This document shows positions 2,447-33,867 of a stretch of 50,148 nt of DNA, in pieces. Made by a program: the position numbers and the translations under genes. The notes beneath the pieces are model-generated. The model was not told the DNA's origin. It did no database searches and saw only the letters and a program-made list of their open reading frames with translations. The stretch's first letter is position 1, and the number at the start of each line of letters is the position of its first letter. The DNA is from Nitrospira japonica (GTDB taxonomy: Bacteria; Nitrospirota; Thermodesulfovibrionia; Thermodesulfovibrionales; DYHX01): positions 1 through 50,148 of the forward strand of contig DYHX01000004.1 in the NCBI GenBank assembly GCA_020723925.1. Reading direction: 5' to 3'.

Positions 2447-3454
2447 TCATCCTTTAAATAAAAGATGTATCGTGACCATGACTAAGGATGTGCCTATCGC
2501 TACGATACAAAGAAAATAGAGATTCCTTAGATATTCCTTTAGGGTTACAGCGGTCTCTTTGTGCTTGCCCATTAAATTAAGTAAAAGCGCCCATCCTGGT
2601 GAAAATGTGCCAATGACAAATAGGGCTGACATAAATGTGGTATCTGGCACATACTGCCACATACAATAAATGCAGTGGTGATATGGAAGATTCATGATCT
2701 TTGGTGCAACAACCTCGAATATGGCAAAAGTGGTAATTACTGCGTTTAATAAGGCAAGAACCACACCAATTATCGTGAGGCGTAGAGCGTGAGGCGTAAG
2801 GCGAGGATAGGATATGCCCATAAAGGCAATTAATAAGATGTTTGAAAGGTAATAAAGGGGGAGCATATAACGCTCATAACCTTCACCGAGGATAGAAATA
2901 GGAAGCATAGCTGTCGCCCTTTCTGGAATGTCAAAGAAAGTGGTACAGCATGCAACAAAAGCTTTGATATTAAAGGTCGTAAAGTATATAAGGTCACCTG
3001 CGCTGTCCACAAATGCCAGGATACTCACAACAGAAAGAAACAGAAATTTTCTCTTAAAAAGAGGAGCGGTCTCTGTTCCTCTGTCAAGGCGGTTTAAGAG
3101 AAGCCAGCCACAGATAGAGAAAAAGACTACGGGTTTAAAAATCTGAACAATGCTACTGAGATAGGGGTGAAGCTGTGTAATACCAAAGATGCACATTACC
3201 CCTTGGATATTGGGAACATAGCTTTGAAGGGTTGCATAAAAGATCGGCCACGAGAGTAACTTCACAAAAAGCATAACTGTAGCCATGTGCAGCAGAAGAT
3301 ATGACCTGTTCTCAATAGCAGTTCTTTCATCATCGTAGAGGGTCTTTCCCCACCTCTGATACATTCTGAAGGAGAGAACACCGAGGGGAATCGCAAGAGT
3401 GCCTGTAAGTATAGCTATAAAGAGCATTACTATGGTATATGCGTTGAGTATCAT
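2447..3454 (-). CDS. Multi-pass membrane protein of unknown function
   Basis: 335 aa, about 8 hydrophobic segments; ATGA-type overlap with ABC ATPase gene. Confidence 0.75.
   Translation of the reverse strand: MILNAYTIVMLFIAILTGTLAIPLGVLSFRMYQRWGKTLYDDERTAIENRSYLLLHMATVMLFVKLLSWPIFYATLQSYVPNIQGVMCIFGITQLHPYLSSIVQIFKPVVFFSICGWLLLNRLDRGTETAPLFKRKFLFLSVVSILAFVDSAGDLIYFTTFNIKAFVACCTTFFDIPERATAMLPISILGEGYERYMLPLYYLSNILLIAFMGISYPRLTPHALRLTIIGVVLALLNAVITTFAIFEVVAPKIMNLPYHHCIYCMWQYVPDTTFMSALFVIGTFSPGWALLLNLMGKHKETAVTLKEYLRNLYFLCIVAIGTSLVMVTIHLLFKG
2775..2809. repeat. Heptamer array (CGTGAGG CGTAGAG CGTGAGG CGTAAGG CGAGGAT)
   Basis: Five consecutive 7-mers inside a membrane protein gene. Confidence 0.85.
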
Positions 3455-4197
3455 CTATGCACTAAAGGAACCCATGAGCCAGCTAAATGGCCATGCCTTA
3501 TCTCAAAGATTATATCAGCATTTACGAATAAACCCTCATCATGCGAAGATATGAGGATAGTCTTACCCTCTGCCTTTAAACCTTTAAGGATATCTATAAG
3601 CAGAGAGGCGGCCTCTACATCTATATTTGATGTGGGCTCATCGAGGATGATTATGTCAGGGTTGTTTACCAATGCCCTTGCAATTGCAACCCTTTGTTGT
3701 TCTCCTCCACTCAATTCCTCCGGGGCATGATGCACCCTATCTGACAGCCCAATCTTATCCAAAAGTTGCATCGCCCTATACTTTCTATCTTTTTCCCTTA
3801 TGCCCTGAGGGATAAGGGGAGCGGAGACATTCTCCCATGCAGAGAGTCGTGGAACAAGATTAAAGTTTTGAAAGACAAACCCTATCCTTTTTCTCCTCAG
3901 TAACGACAATGTTACATCGGAAAAATCTGTTATATCCTTTCCATCCAGATATGCCCTGCCTCTGCTCGGCCTGTCGATAGCGCCGATAATACTTATAAGA
4001 GTAGTCTTCCCTGAGCCTGATGGACCATTAAAAATCGTGAAGGAACCCTTTTCTACCACAAAACTCACATCCACAAGCGCCCGAACCTCATGGGGTTTAG
4101 CCTCATTATAGATTTTCCATATCCCATCACACCTGATTAATTCATTATCCTGACTTCTGAGTTCTGTGTTCTGAGTTCTGTGTTCTGTGTCTATCAT
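3451..4197 (-). CDS. ABC transporter ATP-binding protein (LolD/MacB type)
   Basis: Walker A GPSGSGKTT, signature LSGGEQQRVAIARAL, Walker B IIILDEPTS. Confidence 0.95.
   Translation of the reverse strand: MIDTEHRTQNTELRSQDNELIRCDGIWKIYNEAKPHEVRALVDVSFVVEKGSFTIFNGPSGSGKTTLISIIGAIDRPSRGRAYLDGKDITDFSDVTLSLLRRKRIGFVFQNFNLVPRLSAWENVSAPLIPQGIREKDRKYRAMQLLDKIGLSDRVHHAPEELSGGEQQRVAIARALVNNPDIIILDEPTSNIDVEAASLLIDILKGLKAEGKTILISSHDEGLFVNADIIFEIRHGHLAGSWVPLVHR
4150..4191. repeat. Heptamer array (CTGACTT CTGAGTT CTGTGTT CTGAGTT CTGTGTT CTGTGTC)
   Basis: Six consecutive 7-mers at the ABC ATPase N terminus. Confidence 0.92.
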
Positions 4198-7642: not shown

Positions 7643-8920
7643 CTAACCCCTCCTCTCTGGATAACCACGTTCTTTCAACTCATCTATAAGTTCTGATGTA
7701 ATTAGATTCATTCCCCTCTCCTCTGCTTTTGCCTCTATTATCTTTGTTATTATCCCCTGCATAAAGAATGGAACCTTTTTAATCCTTTCCTTTGCCTCAT
7801 CAGTCCATTGGAGTTGTCCTCGAAAGATTTTTTTGAGGACAACCCTCTCACCGCCCTCTGGATTGTAATTACAGAACGGGTCTTCCTCCATGAAGTTTCC
7901 TTTCACTGTTAATGCCCTTGCCCTGCAGCCACCGCATATCTCAATATATTCGCAGATGCCACACCTGCCTTTGTAAGCCCCCCCGCGCAATAACTTCAAA
8001 TATGGTGAATCTTCCCATATAGATGTCAAAGATTTCTCTTTTATGTTGCCCACTGTAACTGGCATATAAGGGCATGGTGTTATATTGCCCTCTGGGTCTA
8101 TCCTCATGTAGTTAATTCCAGCAAGACAGCCCCTTGTCCCTTCAGGGATGCTGTAGCCTTCTTCGTAGAGGAATCTATATATGTGAGGGGCACACTTAGC
8201 CTTTATCATAAGCCTTCTTTCCTTCACCGATATTTTTACTATGTGCCTTATTGCCGCATCATAATTTTTTGTAGATATATCAGTCCTCATTGCCCTCCCG
8301 GTGCAGACGAGGAAAAAGAAATTAACCGCCCTTGCACCCAGGCGTACTCCAATCTCTACAAAGTCATCTATCCATTTCCAGTTATGATCTGTCAGGGTAA
8401 CATCCATTTGAATCTCAATGCCTACCTCTTTTGCTGACCTCAAGGCACTCATAGATAGCTCCCATGCACCATCAAGCCCTCGGAAGGAATCATGGTAGCT
8501 TCTATTTATGGAATCAATGCTCACACCGAGGCCCTTTAATCCTGCATCCTTTAACATCCTCAGATTTTCTCTTGTAAGGAGTGTGCCATTGGAACCCAGA
8601 ACAGTGATGAACCCTGCCTGACTTGCATATTCCACTATATCGAATATATCATCCCTCAACATGGGTTCGCCTCCGCTCAAGATAAGCATAAGTTGGGCAT
8701 TTAGATAGGATAGTTCATCTATGACAAACCTTGCCTCTTCCCTTGAAAGTTCGGAGTTCAGAGTTCGGAGTTCGGAGCTTGGAGACTCCTGACTCCCGAC
8801 TCCTGACGCCCGATTACCTTTATGGCTGTTCACTGATTCTATATAGCAGTGAGGACATAAAAGATTACATCTCTTCGTAAGATTCCATGAAACTAAATAT
8901 GGCCTATATTCACTCATCAC
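7643..8920 (-). CDS. Radical SAM/SPASM protein with PCP_red-like C-terminal segment
   Basis: CNLLCPHC, SGGEPMLRDD, SPASM CGICEYIEICGGCRARAL, C-terminal WTDEAKERIKKVPFFMQGIITKIIEAKAEERG resembles the protochlorophyllide reductase tail domain; carries a repeat-encoded insertion. Confidence 0.85.
   Translation of the reverse strand: MMSEYRPYLVSWNLTKRCNLLCPHCYIESVNSHKGNRASGVGSQESPSSELRTLNSELSREEARFVIDELSYLNAQLMLILSGGEPMLRDDIFDIVEYASQAGFITVLGSNGTLLTRENLRMLKDAGLKGLGVSIDSINRSYHDSFRGLDGAWELSMSALRSAKEVGIEIQMDVTLTDHNWKWIDDFVEIGVRLGARAVNFFFLVCTGRAMRTDISTKNYDAAIRHIVKISVKERRLMIKAKCAPHIYRFLYEEGYSIPEGTRGCLAGINYMRIDPEGNITPCPYMPVTVGNIKEKSLTSIWEDSPYLKLLRGGAYKGRCGICEYIEICGGCRARALTVKGNFMEEDPFCNYNPEGGERVVLKKIFRGQLQWTDEAKERIKKVPFFMQGIITKIIEAKAEERGMNLITSELIDELKERGYPERRG
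8749..8811. repeat. Double heptamer array (GTTCGGA x5 then GACTCCT x4)
   Basis: Nine consecutive 7-mers, two unit types sharing one register, inside the radical SAM gene. Confidence 0.93.
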
Positions 8921-10483: not shown

Positions 10484-11914
10484 TTATTTTTTCCTCTTCA
10501 GCCTTCTATGCAATACCATGCCAAGACCAAAAACTGCAAATGAGACTACAGGGGGGAGGATATATACCTTCAATGGGGTTGGCGGCTCCAGCATGATGTA
10601 ATACCATGCTGACACTACCCCTTTGTTTTTCTCCTCATTGTTCTGCCCATCATAGAGGGTGACTGAAAATGGAACGAATCTGCCAACTTCAAAGACAATA
10701 TCGTCCTTATCCTTCGTATCTATAGACCTTTTAAATATAACCCTGTATAATCCATCGTTATATGTTGCAGTAATCTTCACATCCTGTTTTTCTTGCTGTG
10801 TTATCAGCTCCTCTATTGGCCCCTTAGCATTGAGTTCAACACCGAGATTATCTGATGCTTTCCACTGCCAGATATTAACAGCCCTTTTCCCATCTCCCAT
10901 AAAAAAATAAGGCTTTTCACTACCTGTAAGGATTTTAGAAGGAAACTGTATGTGCGCTGCGTCTGGAGACAAACCATCATCACCCTTGTTAGGCCTTTTA
11001 TCGGTCCACTCAAGCATCATTGCAACCTCAGAGCCTGAATAGATTCCCCTTACCCTTACATTCGTTATCGTGGGTGTAAAATGGCGTGGCTCAAATATTA
11101 TCTGCCCGGCCATCGGCATATCGATATAATCACCCTTTTCCCATGCTCTATCATCCGTCGAAGAAGGAATAGCATCCACCCTCTTTATCCGTAATGCTAT
11201 GCCGAGTCTCCTTTTCAGTTGTAGAGATTTTATAAACTGTGCCAGTGCCCACCTATCATCATCAGAAAGGGAGTCCTGATATGAGGTCATAGGTGTACCG
11301 CTCAGCCCAACAGTTATTGTCCTGTATATATCCTCAACGGTTGAGCCATTCCTCAATTCCCAAGTATGTGTATAATTAGCAGGGTATATTCTCTGACCCC
11401 AGTCATCCTTAAATTTAGCTTCCCAACCTTTCTCGCCGTTACCCCTGCCTGCTTCGCCATGACATTCAAAACATTTTGCAACCTTAAACAGTTCCTTTCC
11501 TTTTTTTATGATTGCATCACTCGCAGAAGGTGCCTTTCCAATCTTTATTGGTCCTGGCTTAACGGCAAAGACATCAGGGGAAAATTTCTTTATGTAGTCA
11601 ACGATTGCCACGACCTCACCATCGCTGAATCTCTCCCATGCAGGCATAGATGTCCCTGGATTTCCCTTTCTTATGGACTGTATCAAATCCTTGTCAGCAG
11701 GAGGGTCGCCTGTTGGTGTTGAGCGAAATTTATAGACACCGAATGCAAGATCCCTCGGTCTTGGAAATGTAAAGTCACTGGAGTAGGCATCAGCATCACC
11801 TTTATATCCATGACACTGGGCGCACCACTCTTCATAAAGCTTCTTCCCTTTATCTTCAGAAAATGCATTAACGGGCAATAATAACAATAAAACAAGGGTT
11901 ATGAGAATCCTCAT
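10484..11914 (-). CDS. Diheme c-type cytochrome fused to EB_dh-like (ethylbenzene dehydrogenase gamma-type) heme-binding domain
   Basis: CAQCH and CFECH motifs, C-terminal EB_dh-like sequence and TM; start chosen at MRILITL with RBS GGAGG (ORF extends to 11992). Confidence 0.85.
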   Translation of the reverse strand: MRILITLVLLLLLPVNAFSEDKGKKLYEEWCAQCHGYKGDADAYSSDFTFPRPRDLAFGVYKFRSTPTGDPPADKDLIQSIRKGNPGTSMPAWERFSDGEVVAIVDYIKKFSPDVFAVKPGPIKIGKAPSASDAIIKKGKELFKVAKCFECHGEAGRGNGEKGWEAKFKDDWGQRIYPANYTHTWELRNGSTVEDIYRTITVGLSGTPMTSYQDSLSDDDRWALAQFIKSLQLKRRLGIALRIKRVDAIPSSTDDRAWEKGDYIDMPMAGQIIFEPRHFTPTITNVRVRGIYSGSEVAMMLEWTDKRPNKGDDGLSPDAAHIQFPSKILTGSEKPYFFMGDGKRAVNIWQWKASDNLGVELNAKGPIEELITQQEKQDVKITATYNDGLYRVIFKRSIDTKDKDDIVFEVGRFVPFSVTLYDGQNNEEKNKGVVSAWYYIMLEPPTPLKVYILPPVVSFAVFGLGMVLHRRLKRKK

Positions 11915-12491: not shown

Positions 12492-13420
12492 GGGGTCAGG
12501 TCTTGAAATATAAGAGAAGATTCTGATACAGTGATAACTAATGGCAAGACCTTTAAGGATAGAATATCAAGGAGCACTATATCATATAACTTCAAGGGGC
12601 AATGCAAAGAACAAGATATACTACGATGATAAAGACAGAGCAGTTTTTCTTGAAGTATTAGGCTCAGTAGTAAAGAGATTCAACTGGTTGTGTCATGCCT
12701 ACTGTCTGATGGACAATCATTATCATCTTATGATAGAGACTCCTGAAGCTAATCTATCAAAAGGCATGAGACAGCTTAACGGAGTGTATACCCAGACATA
12801 CAACAGAAGACACAAGAAGGTTGGACATATATTTCAGGGAAGATATAAAGCAATAATAGTAGAGAAGGAGAGTTATCTTCTTGAGCTTTGCCGATATGTG
12901 GTGTTAAATCCGGTGAGGGCAAGGATTGTGGAATTACCTGAAGAATGGCAATGGAGCAGTTATTCAGCCACAGCAGGGATAAAGAAAGCACCTGCCTATC
13001 TTATAGTTGACTGGATACTTGGTCAGTTTGGCAGTAAAAAGACAAAGGCAGAAAGGCGATATAAAGAGTTTGTCATAGCAGGGATTAAAGAAGCCTTTCC
13101 ATGGGGGGAACTTCAAGGGCAGATATTACTTGGTGGAGAAGGGTTTATTGAGAAAATCAAAGGTTTAATAACAGAGAAAGAGGATATAAAAGAGGTACCA
13201 AGACTTCAGAGATATGCTGGCAGACCTCTGCTTTCAGAGATATTCGAAGAGGAAAAAACAAAGGACAAAAACAGAAGGAATAAAGAAATATACAATGCTC
13301 ACATGAAATTTGGTTACACACTAAAAGAGATTGCAGATTATTTAGGTATTCACTATACTACAGTAAGCAAGAAAATAAATGGGGTGGAGACTAAAATCTG
13401 ATATTTCAAGACCTGACCCC
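12492..13420 (+). mobile_element. RAYT/Y1-transposase element bounded by a 20-bp perfect inverted repeat
   Basis: GGGGTCAGGTCTTGAAATAT at 12492-12511 and its exact reverse complement at 13401-13420. Confidence 0.9.
12541..13401 (+). CDS. REP-associated tyrosine transposase (Y1_Tnp/RAYT) with C-terminal HTH
   Basis: MARPLRIEYQGALYHITSRGN, HUH motif DNHYHLMIE, GHIFQGRYKAIIVEKESYLLELCRYVVLNPVRA. Confidence 0.95.
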   Translation: MARPLRIEYQGALYHITSRGNAKNKIYYDDKDRAVFLEVLGSVVKRFNWLCHAYCLMDNHYHLMIETPEANLSKGMRQLNGVYTQTYNRRHKKVGHIFQGRYKAIIVEKESYLLELCRYVVLNPVRARIVELPEEWQWSSYSATAGIKKAPAYLIVDWILGQFGSKKTKAERRYKEFVIAGIKEAFPWGELQGQILLGGEGFIEKIKGLITEKEDIKEVPRLQRYAGRPLLSEIFEEEKTKDKNRRNKEIYNAHMKFGYTLKEIADYLGIHYTTVSKKINGVETKI

Positions 13421-13552
13421 TATTCCTATTCCTATTCCTATTCCTATTTGACCTATTCTGATGACCTATTCTGACTATTCTGACCCCTATTCCTATTATT
13501 CCTATTCTTTTTCTATCTATTCTCTATTCTATTCTTTGACCCTATTTGATTC
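13421..13552. repeat. CCTATT-rich degenerate repeat tract next to the transposase element
   Basis: TATTCCTATTCCTATTCCTATTCC, then GACCTATTCTGAT/GACCTATTCTGAC and a second CTGACCCCTATTCCTATT. Confidence 0.85.
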
Positions 13553-15177: not shown

Positions 15178-15550
15178 CAGTCTTATTACGGTTTTCTTCA
15201 GGGCTTCCTATAATTACCATAACCCTGTTTGGAAGACACACAACTGCACCTTTGTCTATCCATCCATGATGAATGCATATCTTATTCTGGCATGGAGATT
15301 CTTTTATGCGAACCTTTTTGTCCTTAATTTCGACTGTTATACTGCCAATCGCACCCTTCACCGAAACAGTTCTGTCAATGTCGATAGGCAATTTATAGGC
15401 AAGTTTTCCATTAACTTCTATCCTCACATCTGTTCCCTGGGAAAGGACATCTTTTACGAATATAAATCCAAGAAAAGATACAAGTATGAGCACAATAAGC
15501 AAAAGCCTATCTGCGATTGTTGTCCCATTAAGCGTCTCTCTTAATCTCAA
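15158..15550 (-). CDS. NusG domain II-containing protein
   Basis: Single TM plus VRIKESPCQNKICIHHGWIDKGAVVCLPNRVMVII. Confidence 0.85.
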   Translation of the reverse strand: MRLRETLNGTTIADRLLLIVLILVSFLGFIFVKDVLSQGTDVRIEVNGKLAYKLPIDIDRTVSVKGAIGSITVEIKDKKVRIKESPCQNKICIHHGWIDKGAVVCLPNRVMVIIGSPEENRNKTVDATTG

Positions 15551-16562
15551 TCTTTCCCCTCAGTCCACGTGTTGTATATATTTTGCCATCCCTGTTAACA
15601 ATTATTCCATCAAAGCCCATTTCCTCAAGCAGTTTCATGCCTTTCTCATGTCCGAGTATAAATACACCTGTTGAGAATGCATCTGTAAATACCCCGTCTT
15701 TTGCTATTACGCTCACGCTCTGGCATGTATCAGCAGGGTAACCTGTCTTTGGGTCAAGGAGGTGGTGATAGCGTTTATCATTTAATATGAAGTATCTCTC
15801 ATAGTCTCCAGATGTTGATATTGCCATATCCTTCAACTCTATGGTTGCCATAATCTCATCCTTTTCACCTTTGGCCCTCGGATTCCTTATACCTACCTTC
15901 CATGGTTTTCCATCAGACTTCAGGCCAAATGCCTTTATATCTCCTGCAACAGAGACAAGGCCGGATGTTATTCCGTACTTTTTTAATACATCTACTGCCC
16001 TGTCTGCAGCATAACCCTTTGCAATCCCACCAGTGTCAAAGGACATGCCCTTTCTTTTCAGAAATGCGGTTGACCTCTCTTTATCGATAACCATGACTTT
16101 ATAATCCACAAGATGAATCTTTTCTTTAATAGCCCTGTCATCAGGCATTATCTTCTTATTAAAATCCCACAACCTGACTAAAGGCCCTATTGTTGCGTCA
16201 AAGGCACCATTAGTCTTCTCAGAGACAAATATAGCCTTTTCTATAATATCAAGCGTAACAGGGGAAACCTTCACCTCTGACACTCCAGCGTTTTTGCTTA
16301 TGGCTGCTATCTCGCTATCATCAGACCAGAAGTTAATCAGTTTTTCTATTTTATGTATCTCATCAAATGCTGAATCAATTGCCATCTCTGACTCATTTTT
16401 TGAATCAGAGACAACGCTTATCGTTATAAGCGTGTCCATGAGGATCTTGCTTTTACGGTATATTTTTTCTTTCTGAGGTGTGCAGGCAGAGACAGTGAAC
16501 AGTAGAAAAATAAAGACTAAAACTTTGAACTTTGAACTTTTAACTTTAAACTTTTCTCTCAT
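15528..16562 (-). CDS. apbE: FAD:protein FMN transferase lipoprotein
   Basis: [45 protein letters not shown]; lipobox VSAC. Confidence 0.95.
16521..16555. repeat. Heptamer array (AACTTTG AACTTTG AACTTTT AACTTTA AACTTTT)
   Basis: Five consecutive 7-mers at the ApbE N terminus. Confidence 0.93.
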
Positions 16563-19078
16563 GCTATCCTCGCAAGGCTCAAGCCCGATAATTTATCCCT
16601 GAGAAATCTTCCTGTATACGAATTAAGATTTCTGCTGACCTCCTCTGGCGTGCCTGAAGCCGTAACCCTTCCTCCTCCCTCTCCGCCCTCAGGACCGAGG
16701 TCGATTATATAGTCTGCTGATTTTACCACATCGAGATTGTGTTCTATAACCAGAACTGTATTTCCTAAATCGACAAGGCTGTTAATAACGTCGAGGAGCT
16801 TCTGTATGTCAACGAAGTGGAGCCCTGTTGTCGGTTCATCAAGGATGTAAAGGGTATTGCCTGTAGATTTCTTCCCAAGTTCCCTTGAAAGCCTCACCCT
16901 CTGCGCCTCGCCTCCTGAAAGGGTTGTTGCTGGCTGACCGAGCTGTAAGTAGCCAAGTCCCACATCCTCAAGTATTTCGAGCTTCTGCCTTATGGGGGGT
17001 ATTGCGCCGAAGAACTGAAGGGCCTCTGAGACTCTCATCCCAAGTACCTCACCTATATTTTTTCCCTTGTAGCTTATCTCAAGGGTTTCTTTGTTGTACC
17101 TCTTTCCCTTGCACGTATCGCAAGGGATATAGACATCAGGGAGAAAATGCATTTCTACTTTTTTCAGCCCATTACCGTGACATGCCTCGCATCTTCCACC
17201 AGAGAGGTTAAAGCTGAACCTCGATGGAGAATATCCTCTTACTCTTGAATCTAAAAGTTGAGAAAACAGTTCTCTTATGAATGTGAACACCCCTGTATAG
17301 GTTGCAGGATTAGACCTCGGTGTACGGCCCAGCGGAGATTGGTCAACACATATCACACGGTCAATCCTGTCCATGCCAATGATTTCCCTATATCTTCCAG
17401 GGATAAGCCTGCTTCCATATATGCTCTTTGCAAGGGCTTTGTAGAGTATCTCGAAGATGAGTGTGCTCTTTCCGGAACCTGATACGCCTGTTATGCATGT
17501 GAAAGAGCCGAGTGGTATCTTCACATTTATATTTTTTAGATTGAATTCGGATGCACCGATGATCTCTATAAAGTCCTTTGGCTGTCTTCTTTTATATGGC
17601 ACAGCAATGCTAAGCTCGCCCTTCAGGTATTTGCCTGTTAATGAATTCTCATTGCCCTCGATTTCGTATGGTGTCCCTTCTGCAACAACCCATCCGCCCC
17701 TGCGACCAGCGCCAGGCCCCATATCAACCACATGGTCAGCCCACCTTATTGTCTCCTCATCGTGCTCGACAACAATGACCGTGTTGCCAGCATCTCTTAT
17801 GGATGAAAGACTTTCAAGGAGTTTTTTGCAGTCCCTCGGGTGAAGACCTATGCTCGGCTCATCAAGGACATAGAGGACACCTGTGAGTGATGAGCCCATC
17901 TGTGTTGCAAGCCTTATCCTCTGTGCCTCACCACCTGAGAGTGTGAGTGACGGCCTGTCAAGCGTAAGGTAACTAAGTCCGACCTTTCCAAGGAATGAGA
18001 GCCTGTCCCTGACCTCCTTAAGAACACGAAATGCAATTATCTGTTCTCTCTCTGTGAGTCTTAAATTATTGATAAAGAGCAAGGCATCCCTGACAGACAT
18101 CCTCCCGAATTCACCTATGTTTATATCCTGTATTTTTATGCTCAGGGCCTCTTTTCTCAATCTCAATCCATTGCATAGCCTGCAATATCTGTATTCCTCA
18201 AGCTCGGTAGAATCCTCTTCAACATTCTCGAAGCCGAGTCCGTTACATCTTGGACATGCGCCATGCTTGCTGTTGAAGGAGAAGAACCTCGGATTTATCT
18301 CTGGATAGCTTATACCACAATTTGGGCATGCCATGGTCTTGCTGAACAGGATATCCCTTTTTTCATCTATGAGATTTATCACGACTATATCTGCATATCT
18401 AAGGGATGTGTTGATGGCATTTTTTATCTGCCTTTCGACCCCTGGTTTTATAATGAGCCTGTCTATCACAATCTCGATGGTATGTCTCATCTGCTTCTTG
18501 AGAACTATCTCCTGCGTGAGATCCGTCATCTTGCCATCTATCCTCGCCCTCACAAAACCGTCTCTCCGCATCTCCTGCAACTCTTTCTTGTATTCACCCT
18601 TCCTGTCTCTGACAATTGGTGCAAGGATTTGGAGGCGGGTTCTCTGTGGAAGGGACATGACAGAGTCGATTATGCTCTGTGCCTCCTGAGTTGCTATAGC
18701 AGAACCGCAGTTATAGCAGTAAGGTTTTCCTACCCTCGTGTACAGAACGCGCATGTAATCGTAAATCTCTGTTATTGTGCCGAGGGTGGAGCGTGGGCTC
18801 TTTGTTACAGTCTTCTGGTCAATGGCAATAGATGGCGACAGTCCCTCAATATAGTCAACGTCAGGCTTCTGGAGCTGTTCGAGGAACTGTCTTGCATAGG
18901 CAGAGAGGCTTTCCACATATCGCCTCTGTCCCTCTGCATAGATTGTGTCGATGGCAAGGGAAGACTTTCCGGAGCCAGAAGGGCCTGTGATGACGGTTAT
19001 CTTCTCCCTTGGGATGGATAAATCAAAATTCTTGAGGTTGTGCTCTCTCGCACCCTTTATGATTATATAGTTCTGCAT
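16559..19078 (-). CDS. uvrA: Excinuclease ABC subunit A (compact)
   Basis: [35 protein letters not shown], two LSGGEAQR signatures, zinc-finger Cys pairs. Confidence 0.95.
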
Positions 19079-19723: not shown

Positions 19724-19758
19724 CAAGAGTTAAGAGTTAAAAGTGAAAAGTCGGAGTC
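19724..19758. repeat. Heptamer array (CAAGAGT TAAGAGT TAAAAGT GAAAAGT CGGAGTC)
   Basis: Five consecutive 7-mers upstream of pcm. Confidence 0.8.
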
Positions 19759-32777: not shown

Positions 32778-33302
32778 ATGTTTAAAAGAATACTGGTAGC
32801 TACTCATGGGACAGAGGGTGCTAAGAAGGCTGAGATATATGGTATTGGGCTGGCAAGAGCATTAGGCGCAGAGTTGCATGGTCTTTATGTAATACATAGA
32901 GACTGGAGCTCACTTGTTGGCATTGAATGGCTTCATTCTTCCCATGCGAGGATGGAGTTTTACAGATATGCAGAATCTGAGTTTAACCTCAGGGCAAAAG
33001 AGGTCTTAGAAGCCTTTAAACAACATGCAAATGGGATGGAAGTGAGTACAGCCATCAAAGTGGGAGAACCAGCAGAGGTTATAGCAGAGGAAGCAAAGGA
33101 CAGCCATGTGGATATTATTGTTATTGGAGCCAGTAGCACCGGGAGGTCAGAGGAATACAAGGCTCGGATCTCCTTGAAAAAACTCATAAAACTTGCACCA
33201 TGTCCTGTTTTGGTGGCAAATAATGCTTCAACGATTATGCGGGAAGGGGGTGAGGTAGAACTTAGTAGGACAAAGGTTTTGGAGACAGTGAACAGTGAAT
33301 AG
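32778..33302 (+). CDS. Universal stress protein (UspA family)
   Basis: FKRILVATHGTEGAKKAE, DIIVIGASSTGRSEEYKARISLKKLIKLAPCPVLV. Confidence 0.9.
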   Translation: MFKRILVATHGTEGAKKAEIYGIGLARALGAELHGLYVIHRDWSSLVGIEWLHSSHARMEFYRYAESEFNLRAKEVLEAFKQHANGMEVSTAIKVGEPAEVIAEEAKDSHVDIIVIGASSTGRSEEYKARISLKKLIKLAPCPVLVANNASTIMREGGEVELSRTKVLETVNSE

Positions 33303-33349
33303 TGAACAAATATACTTGTCTTTAACTATTCACTAACGACCATTCACTA
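33283..33349. repeat. Opposed heptamer arrays (AGACAGT GAACAGT GAATAGT / TTAACTA TTCACTA ACGACCA TTCACTA)
   Basis: 7-mers spanning the usp stop codon, followed by the same motif in reverse orientation. Confidence 0.88.
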
Positions 33350-33366: not shown

Positions 33367-33867
33367 ATGTTTAAGAAACTGGCAATAGCTTTGCTGTGCT
33401 TCGCATTTGCAGTTGTGGGTTTTTATAACCTTGCATCTGCCGCTGAATGGCCTGATGCCCTCTTAAAGGAATTAGAGGTGCTTAAGGCTGCTGGAAACGA
33501 CAAAAAGGACATGCCTGCTTCTATCCCCGGGATTAAGGAGATAAAAGGCGATGAGCTTAAGAAGTGGATGGATGAGAAGAAGAAGTTCGTACTAATGGAC
33601 AACAGGCTCAAGGCTGACTACGACAAGGAGCATATTGTAGGTGCTGTATTGCTTACTGTGGATGAGCTTATTAAGGATCCCAAGCTGGCTGACAAGTATA
33701 AAAAGGATGATATACTTGTTCAATATTGTAACGGTGTAAAATGCTGGAGATCGCCAGGAGCAATACTGCTCCTTAAACACCTTGGATTTAAGAATATCTA
33801 TTGGTATAGAGACGGTATTCCTGACTGGATAAAGAAGGACTACCCCACAGTAGAGGGCAAGAAGTAA
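33367..33867 (+). CDS. Secreted rhodanese-domain protein
   Basis: Signal peptide, VLMDNRLKADYDKEHIVGAVLL, active-site region VQYCNGVKCWRS. Confidence 0.88.
   Translation: MFKKLAIALLCFAFAVVGFYNLASAAEWPDALLKELEVLKAAGNDKKDMPASIPGIKEIKGDELKKWMDEKKKFVLMDNRLKADYDKEHIVGAVLLTVDELIKDPKLADKYKKDDILVQYCNGVKCWRSPGAILLLKHLGFKNIYWYRDGIPDWIKKDYPTVEGKK

Follow-up and report, generated by a model that had tools for sequence, protein, structure and literature searches.

The window analyzed here (the whole stretch of 50,148 nucleotides) carries on its minus strand, at positions 7643-8920, an open reading frame of 425 amino acids with a GTG start. Judged from its sequence, the product is a member of the Radical SAM/SPASM superfamily; it scores above the cutoffs for PF04055 (Radical_SAM) and PF13186 (SPASM), contains CNLLCPHC, which is a CX3CX2C motif, and has a C-terminal PCP_red domain. 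The best NCBIfam models are NirJ2 (TIGR04055, 307.6 bits) and AhbD (TIGR04545, 287.1 bits), but both scores lie well under the curated cutoff of 500 bits and neither equivalog identity is accepted. Among solved structures a search with this protein returned distant relatives only, PqqE and SkfB, and their alignment begins past the insertion that concerns us here.

That insertion occupies positions 8749-8811 on the minus strand, that is, 63 bp, nine 7-nt steps, or 21 codons in frame, and its translation, HKGNRASGVGSQESPSSELRTLNSE, sits between CNLLCPHC and LSREEARFVIDELS. Read from 8749, the steps are GTTCGGA, GTTCAGA, GTTCGGA, GTTCGGA, GCTTGGA, GACTCCT, GACTCCC, GACTCCT, and GACGCCC: five units of GTTCGGA type and four of GACTCCT type, with units 5 and 9 degenerate. 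The first-pass annotation had described just such an in-frame segment of five plus four heptamers at this place, and both the steps and TRF agree with it, the latter reporting period-7 arrays at 8748-8777 (AGTTCGG, 91% matches) and 8784-8807 (GACTCCT, 88% matches). Together the two "unit types" form a single inverted repeat, with one type in each arm. On the plus strand the first arm (8747-8783) consists of five AGT-core units (AGTTCGG, AGTTCAG, AGTTCGG, AGTTCGG, and AGCTTGG), and the second (8784-8813), of GACTCCT type with an ACT core, is its inverted partner; on the minus strand, the strand of the gene, they code SSELRTLNSEL and NRASGVGSQES, respectively. Folded as RNA, the insertion is a hairpin of 5-bp helices with 2x2 internal loops between them (8735-8825, minimum free energy -36.3 kcal/mol, z -3.5, none of 200 shuffles as good); the DNA fold of the array gives a weak signal.

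Comparison with orthologs accounts for the extra length. From CNLLCPHC to the EEA helix the protein reads CYIESVNSHKGNRASGVGSQESPSSELRTLNSELSREEA where an array-free ortholog reads CYIDSTADSADELTPQEA, and it is longer by exactly 21 residues; since this excess equals the 63 nt of the array, the array explains the difference in length from array-free orthologs. Five orthologs at 56-60% identity lack the array. The one exception is the closest ortholog (65% identity, in genome G028, which falls in the same order but a different family), where the site holds a shorter heptamer tract reading GAACTTC AAACTCC AAACCCT GAACTG. The alignment bears out the earlier proposal that the segment is an in-frame insertion specific to this lineage, placed where a short linker stands in orthologs, and the same insertion, the observation named beforehand as fatal to that proposal, did not appear in the distant orthologs. 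At the boundary of the array orthologs carry GAA CTC or GAA TTG (Glu-Leu codons), which hints, at this site only, that a native GAACTC codon pair seeded the growth of the array. The first-pass annotation had also raised the idea of a surface loop. In an AlphaFold model the array residues 35-55 have pLDDT values below 50, which is compatible with a flexible loop but weak, given a shallow alignment and a mean pLDDT of 63.8.

A heptamer repeat dispersed through the genome

In the window alone, a shuffle test of one 13-mer is suggestive only (17 hits against a mean of 9.6). The whole genome (G000, 1.87 Mb) contains 71 matches to GAGTTCNGAGTTCNGAGTTC at up to two mismatches and none to the reversed control. 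Furthermore, 425 kb of it, made up of the window and 20 other stretches (L065-L084), hold 108 period-7 arrays at a fixed score, against 0, 22, 4, 1, and 5 at periods 5, 8, 10, 11, and 13; some contigs were picked for array hits, so that 108 per 425 kb overestimates the density in the genome. Given these 71 matches against none, together with the 108 arrays, the array at 8749-8811 belongs, as one copy among many, to a heptamer hairpin repeat dispersed through the genome, and chance is excluded. ACT/AGT is the leading period-7 core in these 425 kb and most arrays carry AGT or ACT every 7 nt; other cores are CAGAACA with TCTGGGC and GGAATGC with AATCCGC. Arrays of period 8 are also in excess in stretches L065-L084 (22 against 0-5 at the other control periods).

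Further copies lie within the window. On the minus strand, an array of CTGAGTT/CTGTGTT units (4150-4190) codes residues 3-15 of ORF 3451-4197, and one of AACTTTG units (16521-16554) codes the N-terminal, basic part of the signal-peptide-like leader with which ORF 15528-16562 starts. On the plus strand, a hairpin of ACAGTGA/TTCACTA type (33285-33345) spans the end of ORF 32778-33302 just upstream of ORF 33367-33867, and a short intergenic AGT-core array lies at 19725-19751. A different tandem repeat, of CCTATT and related 9-13 nt units, follows ORF 12541-13401 at 13419-13535.

The repeat extends well beyond this genome. Its GAGTTC form is found in 57 of 150 genomes of the order and the general AGT form in 91 of the 150, while at the level of the phylum 135 of 296 genomes have five-unit AGT arms; for such AGT-core patterns the reversed control (TGA...) is not neutral, because arrays of AGTGAAC type also have TGA every 7 nt. 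The AGT repeat is abundant in one Nostoc and one Microcoleus genome, the former with 691 matches to AGTN4AGTN4AGTN4AGT. As for candidate enzymes, neither G000 nor G028 has Ku, which occurs in 4 of 32 array-rich genomes versus 32 of 118 others; Ku-dependent end joining is rejected as the source on the grounds of these absences and of the lack of association with array richness. Y1_Tnp domains are found in 27 of the 32 array-rich genomes versus 75 of the 118 others (p = 0.03, kinship ignored). G000 has four matches, but the array-rich G049, G132, G045, G025, and G121 show none, which speaks against Y1/RAYT as the sole source.

Arm order, unit number, and matching of arms

Neighboring period-7 arrays that lie close together are inverted. 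When arms are defined as chains of at least three AGT or ACT at 7-nt steps, and neighbors no more than 150 bp apart are paired, AGT precedes ACT in nearly every pair: the ratio of AGT-then-ACT to ACT-then-AGT is 24:1 in G000, 8:0 in Nostoc, 5:0 in G028, 3:0 in G033, and 9:1 in G013, or 49:2 over the five genomes (p ~1e-12). This order is a true polarity because an inverted repeat reads alike on both strands.

The two arms keep no common register. According to the first-pass annotation the 7-nt register at 8749-8811 is maintained across the change of unit, and this stands when G is taken as the first letter of both types; it fails for the AGT and ACT cores, which are offset by 37 nt (2 modulo 7). 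As a rule, moreover, the idea of a register kept while the sequence switches does not survive: the phase differences modulo 7 of the 24 pairs in G000 spread over all seven values (counts of 6, 4, 5, 2, 2, 1, and 4; chi-square p = 0.45), so that the register at this site is a coincidence of about 1 in 7, and the change of unit marks the point where the inverted repeat turns.

The number of units is restricted as well. In the arms inspected, AGT recurs five times and an A/T-rich turn follows. Exact AGT/ACT chains in G000 number 45 with three units, 17 with four, 31 with five, 3 with six, and 1 with eight; G033 has 7 of four units and 10 of five, G013 has 3 and 14, and neither has any above five. 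Five-unit arms thus outnumber four-unit arms 55 to 27 in the pooled genomes (p = 0.003), and four arms are longer. In the Nostoc sample, arrays reach nine units, with a longer tail and no sharp ceiling at five.

The arms of a pair share the core and draw on a common pool of words, and are slightly matched beyond that, but they are not copies of each other. Watson-Crick pairing at the linkers of 49 arm pairs is 47.8%; random re-pairing of the arms within each genome gives 41.2% +/- 2.6%. This barely greater complementarity (0.478 vs 0.412) leads us to reject fold-back or direct copying of one arm into the other. Some arms pair via G-U wobble, yet the frequency of G-U pairs at linkers (0.140) is no higher than in re-paired arms (0.133), and RNA-level covariation through such pairs was not seen. 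The templated or slipped synthesis invoked in the first pass consequently fits poorly on both counts: arm copying because of the linkers, and simple slippage because the unit number stops sharply at five.

Arrays in other genes and turnover among congeners

Most arrays in the sampled 425 kb lie within genes. Set against mechanically called ORFs, which cover 89% of the sequence, 67 of the 108 are well inside (at a distance of over 60 bp from either end) and 18 are intergenic, while 13 lie near starts, 3 near ends, and 7 across an end; 83 thus fall inside ORFs. The insertion is not peculiar to the radical SAM enzyme, since other enzymes in this genome, unrelated to it, have comparable ones. In LpxK, CarA, QueC, and CbiD, named by eye from conserved motifs, arrays occupy indel loops absent from array-poor orthologs, and CarA, QueC, and CbiD of the array-rich G028 have arrays in the same loops. 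The QueC insertion is recognizably common to the two genomes, which belong to two families (AGVQSSKFKVQS and AGVQRSKIKVQS). In the CbiD-like gene (L083:16872-17000), 60 nt of native coding sequence lie between the two arms of a pair, and the G028 arrays are found in the same two loops. Stretch L083 (G000:C57:1-20000) as a whole holds a cobalamin-biosynthesis-like cluster in which nearly every gene has several in-frame heptamer arrays.

Arrays at gene starts code signal-peptide-like leaders at 16521-16554 of the window and at L077:19172-19312, L079:4939-5061, L083:11675-11729, and L083:12421-12583; in these leaders the basic residues come from the purine-rich arm and the hydrophobic stretch from the pyrimidine-rich arm.

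We compared a 20-kb stretch of G013 (L170) with seven congeners, at 85-95% nucleotide identity over long matches. A site that is vacant in some species holds, in others, hairpins whose units are unrelated. One such variable site separates two tRNA genes, another lies at a murE/murF-like junction, a third at a further cell-wall gene junction, and yet another within the leader of a DacA-like carboxypeptidase; positions 11073, 17244-17328, 18411-18511, and 333-418 of L170 are empty or differently filled in congeners. In the case of the DacA-like protein (leader at L170:13571-13680, with orthologous stretches in L176, L177, L179, L181, L188, and L190), the mature protein is nearly identical in seven congeneric species, whereas the signal peptide is coded by different heptamer hairpins, with arrays of CACTGTT, CACTATT, AACTTTC, or TTTTGCA units according to species. 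In several of these species, the leader owes its basic region to the purine-rich arm and its hydrophobic region to the pyrimidine-rich arm. At the junctions of several filled and empty sites we found no consistent target-site duplication, with a possible ATAA at one site. Other palindromic families, of CATTGCGA...GCAATGACA type and CCCCCTTT...AAAGGGGG type, occupy the same sort of sites (L170:9405-9530, and in L181 the site matching L170:7692-7700).

Origin of the repeat and relation to known heptamers

Heptamer hairpin repeats are, as a kind, already known. The short tandemly repeated repetitive sequences (STRR) of filamentous cyanobacteria, first described in Calothrix, are heptamers, and the palindromic elements of Rickettsia are short palindromes that are tolerated in frame in protein genes and constitute a sequence family of about 100-170 bp. 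The present repeat resembles the STRR in its 7-nt unit, and the Nostoc genome is rich in the AGT form with the same arm order (8:0), but its arrays, at up to nine units, differ in lacking the sharp ceiling at five. The Rickettsia elements share the feature of short palindromes in frame inside genes. So do the enterobacterial RU elements (103-168 bp); Delihas reports that small mobile repeats code parts of proteins, including loci with signal-peptide motifs (PMC2759123). Those are sequence families, whereas in our case copies share an architecture and differ freely in unit sequence.

The closest descriptions concern other heptamers. In many bacteria no long simple repeat is more common than the heptamer, and polymerase slippage has been proposed as its source (PMC4679880, PMC4692102). 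The GGGNATC / GGGGA(C/T)T heptamers of Xanthomonas, with similar repeats in Nostoc, are dispersed, have a preferred unit number of four ascribed to G-quadruplexes, form 70-75 convergent inverted pairs per genome, are 89-93% intergenic (the share for Xanthomonas GGGAATC), and differ in sequence from one close relative to another at a given gene junction (Rehm et al. 2015; PMC4692102). The tandem step, dispersal, preferred unit number, convergent pairs, and variation at junctions are all common to our repeat. The differences are that AGTTCGG and GACTCCT lack a G-tract of three in every unit, that the peak and ceiling are at five (G000, G013, and G033) rather than four, and that 83 of 108 arrays are in mechanically called ORFs rather than mostly intergenic. 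In Beggiatoaceae and several cyanobacteria, TAACTGA direct repeats have a single unit sequence in 2-6 copies, with one inverted case, and are mostly intergenic just upstream of start codons (MacGregor 2015; PMC4679880). They too are heptamer direct repeats with an ACT core inside the unit, patchy across genomes and phyla and in some cases within ORFs, but a TAACTGA unit placed upstream of start codons does not describe our repeat. In a limited search of the literature, we found no counterpart of a core of AGT, a ceiling at five units, such abundance within genes, or the rewriting of one site after another.

We consider it very probable that the array at 8749-8811 is a copy of the dispersed heptamer hairpin carried by the enzyme as a passenger loop. 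A copy, in which AGT opens each heptamer of the first arm (five units at most) and a short turn leads into the inverted arm with ACT at 7-nt spacing, would have been inserted into the loop that joins the [4Fe-4S] motif to the following helix, and would persist because 63 nt keep the frame and the loop tolerates 21 extra residues. This confidence applies to the identity of the array and to its reading as a passenger loop; its neutrality for the enzyme and the origin of the repeat are what we infer beyond that.

With regard to origin, we tentatively propose a putative process, possible though on balance doubtful, in which both 3' ends at a break or gap would be extended in 7-nt AGT-core words and then joined. 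Extension of both 3' ends by words of the same type would make the AGT-then-ACT order automatic, with arms that are not copies of each other, and would also permit different words at the same site later. The five-unit ceiling is not accounted for by this proposal, and the bias in arm order might also be expected from a fixed mobile element or from selection for the hairpin. A bolder version, which we regard as rather unlikely, posits a dedicated process that would write the hairpins by placing AGT-core words on both 3' ends, stop at five, and overwrite old hairpins, thereby supplying in-frame loops and whole signal peptides for protein evolution.

The main rival for the origin of the repeat, itself somewhat unlikely, is a MITE- or REP-like mobile palindrome whose transposase, for example a Y1/RAYT enzyme, recognizes the shape of the hairpin. 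Occupied and empty sites among congeners, the defined arm length, and the somewhat higher frequency of Y1_Tnp in array-rich genomes are consistent with it, but the domain is missing from the five array-rich genomes named above, the junctions examined lack the consistent target-site duplication of a MITE, and element sequences vary widely between copies while the architecture stays constant. Plain replication slippage, in which a chance GAACTC-like seed multiplied and the inverted copy arose via template switching at a quasi-palindrome, seems unlikely: although the Glu-Leu codons at the array boundary in orthologs and the precedent of other bacterial heptamers favor it, slippage predicts a falling tail where unit number peaks at five with almost none above, and template switching predicts fully complementary arms, which these are not, and on its own leaves the 49:2 arm order unexplained. 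We consider it more improbable still that the hairpin is selected for a role in RNA (mRNA stability, attenuation, or translation), with coding copies as by-products. The strong RNA fold of the radical SAM copy, the wobble pairing of some arms, and the hairpins adjoining tRNA genes and between genes speak for such a role, and the lack of G-U enrichment at linkers, the location of most arrays inside ORFs, and congeners with different or no hairpins at the same site against it. Finally, the G028 tract at the same radical SAM site and the QueC insertion in both families could reflect a retained function, but recruitment of the loop in the radical SAM enzyme for partner docking or as a substrate channel, despite its position beside the cluster loop, is highly improbable in view of the equivalent insertions in unrelated enzymes and the full-length orthologs that lack it.

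For annotation, these findings mean that peptides with a 7-residue repeat in bacterial enzymes are to be read as repeat insertions rather than as features of the enzyme. The coding cases, in which repeat DNA rewrites loops and signal peptides from one species of a genus to the next, offer a testable instance of new coding sequence arising from repeats. If the architecture holds, with its fixed step, unit ceiling, and arm order and its free unit sequence in this phylum and in Nostoc, the explanation of preferred unit number by G-quadruplexes would not be general, and one common generating process may underlie the heptamers of Xanthomonas, Beggiatoaceae, and cyanobacteria.
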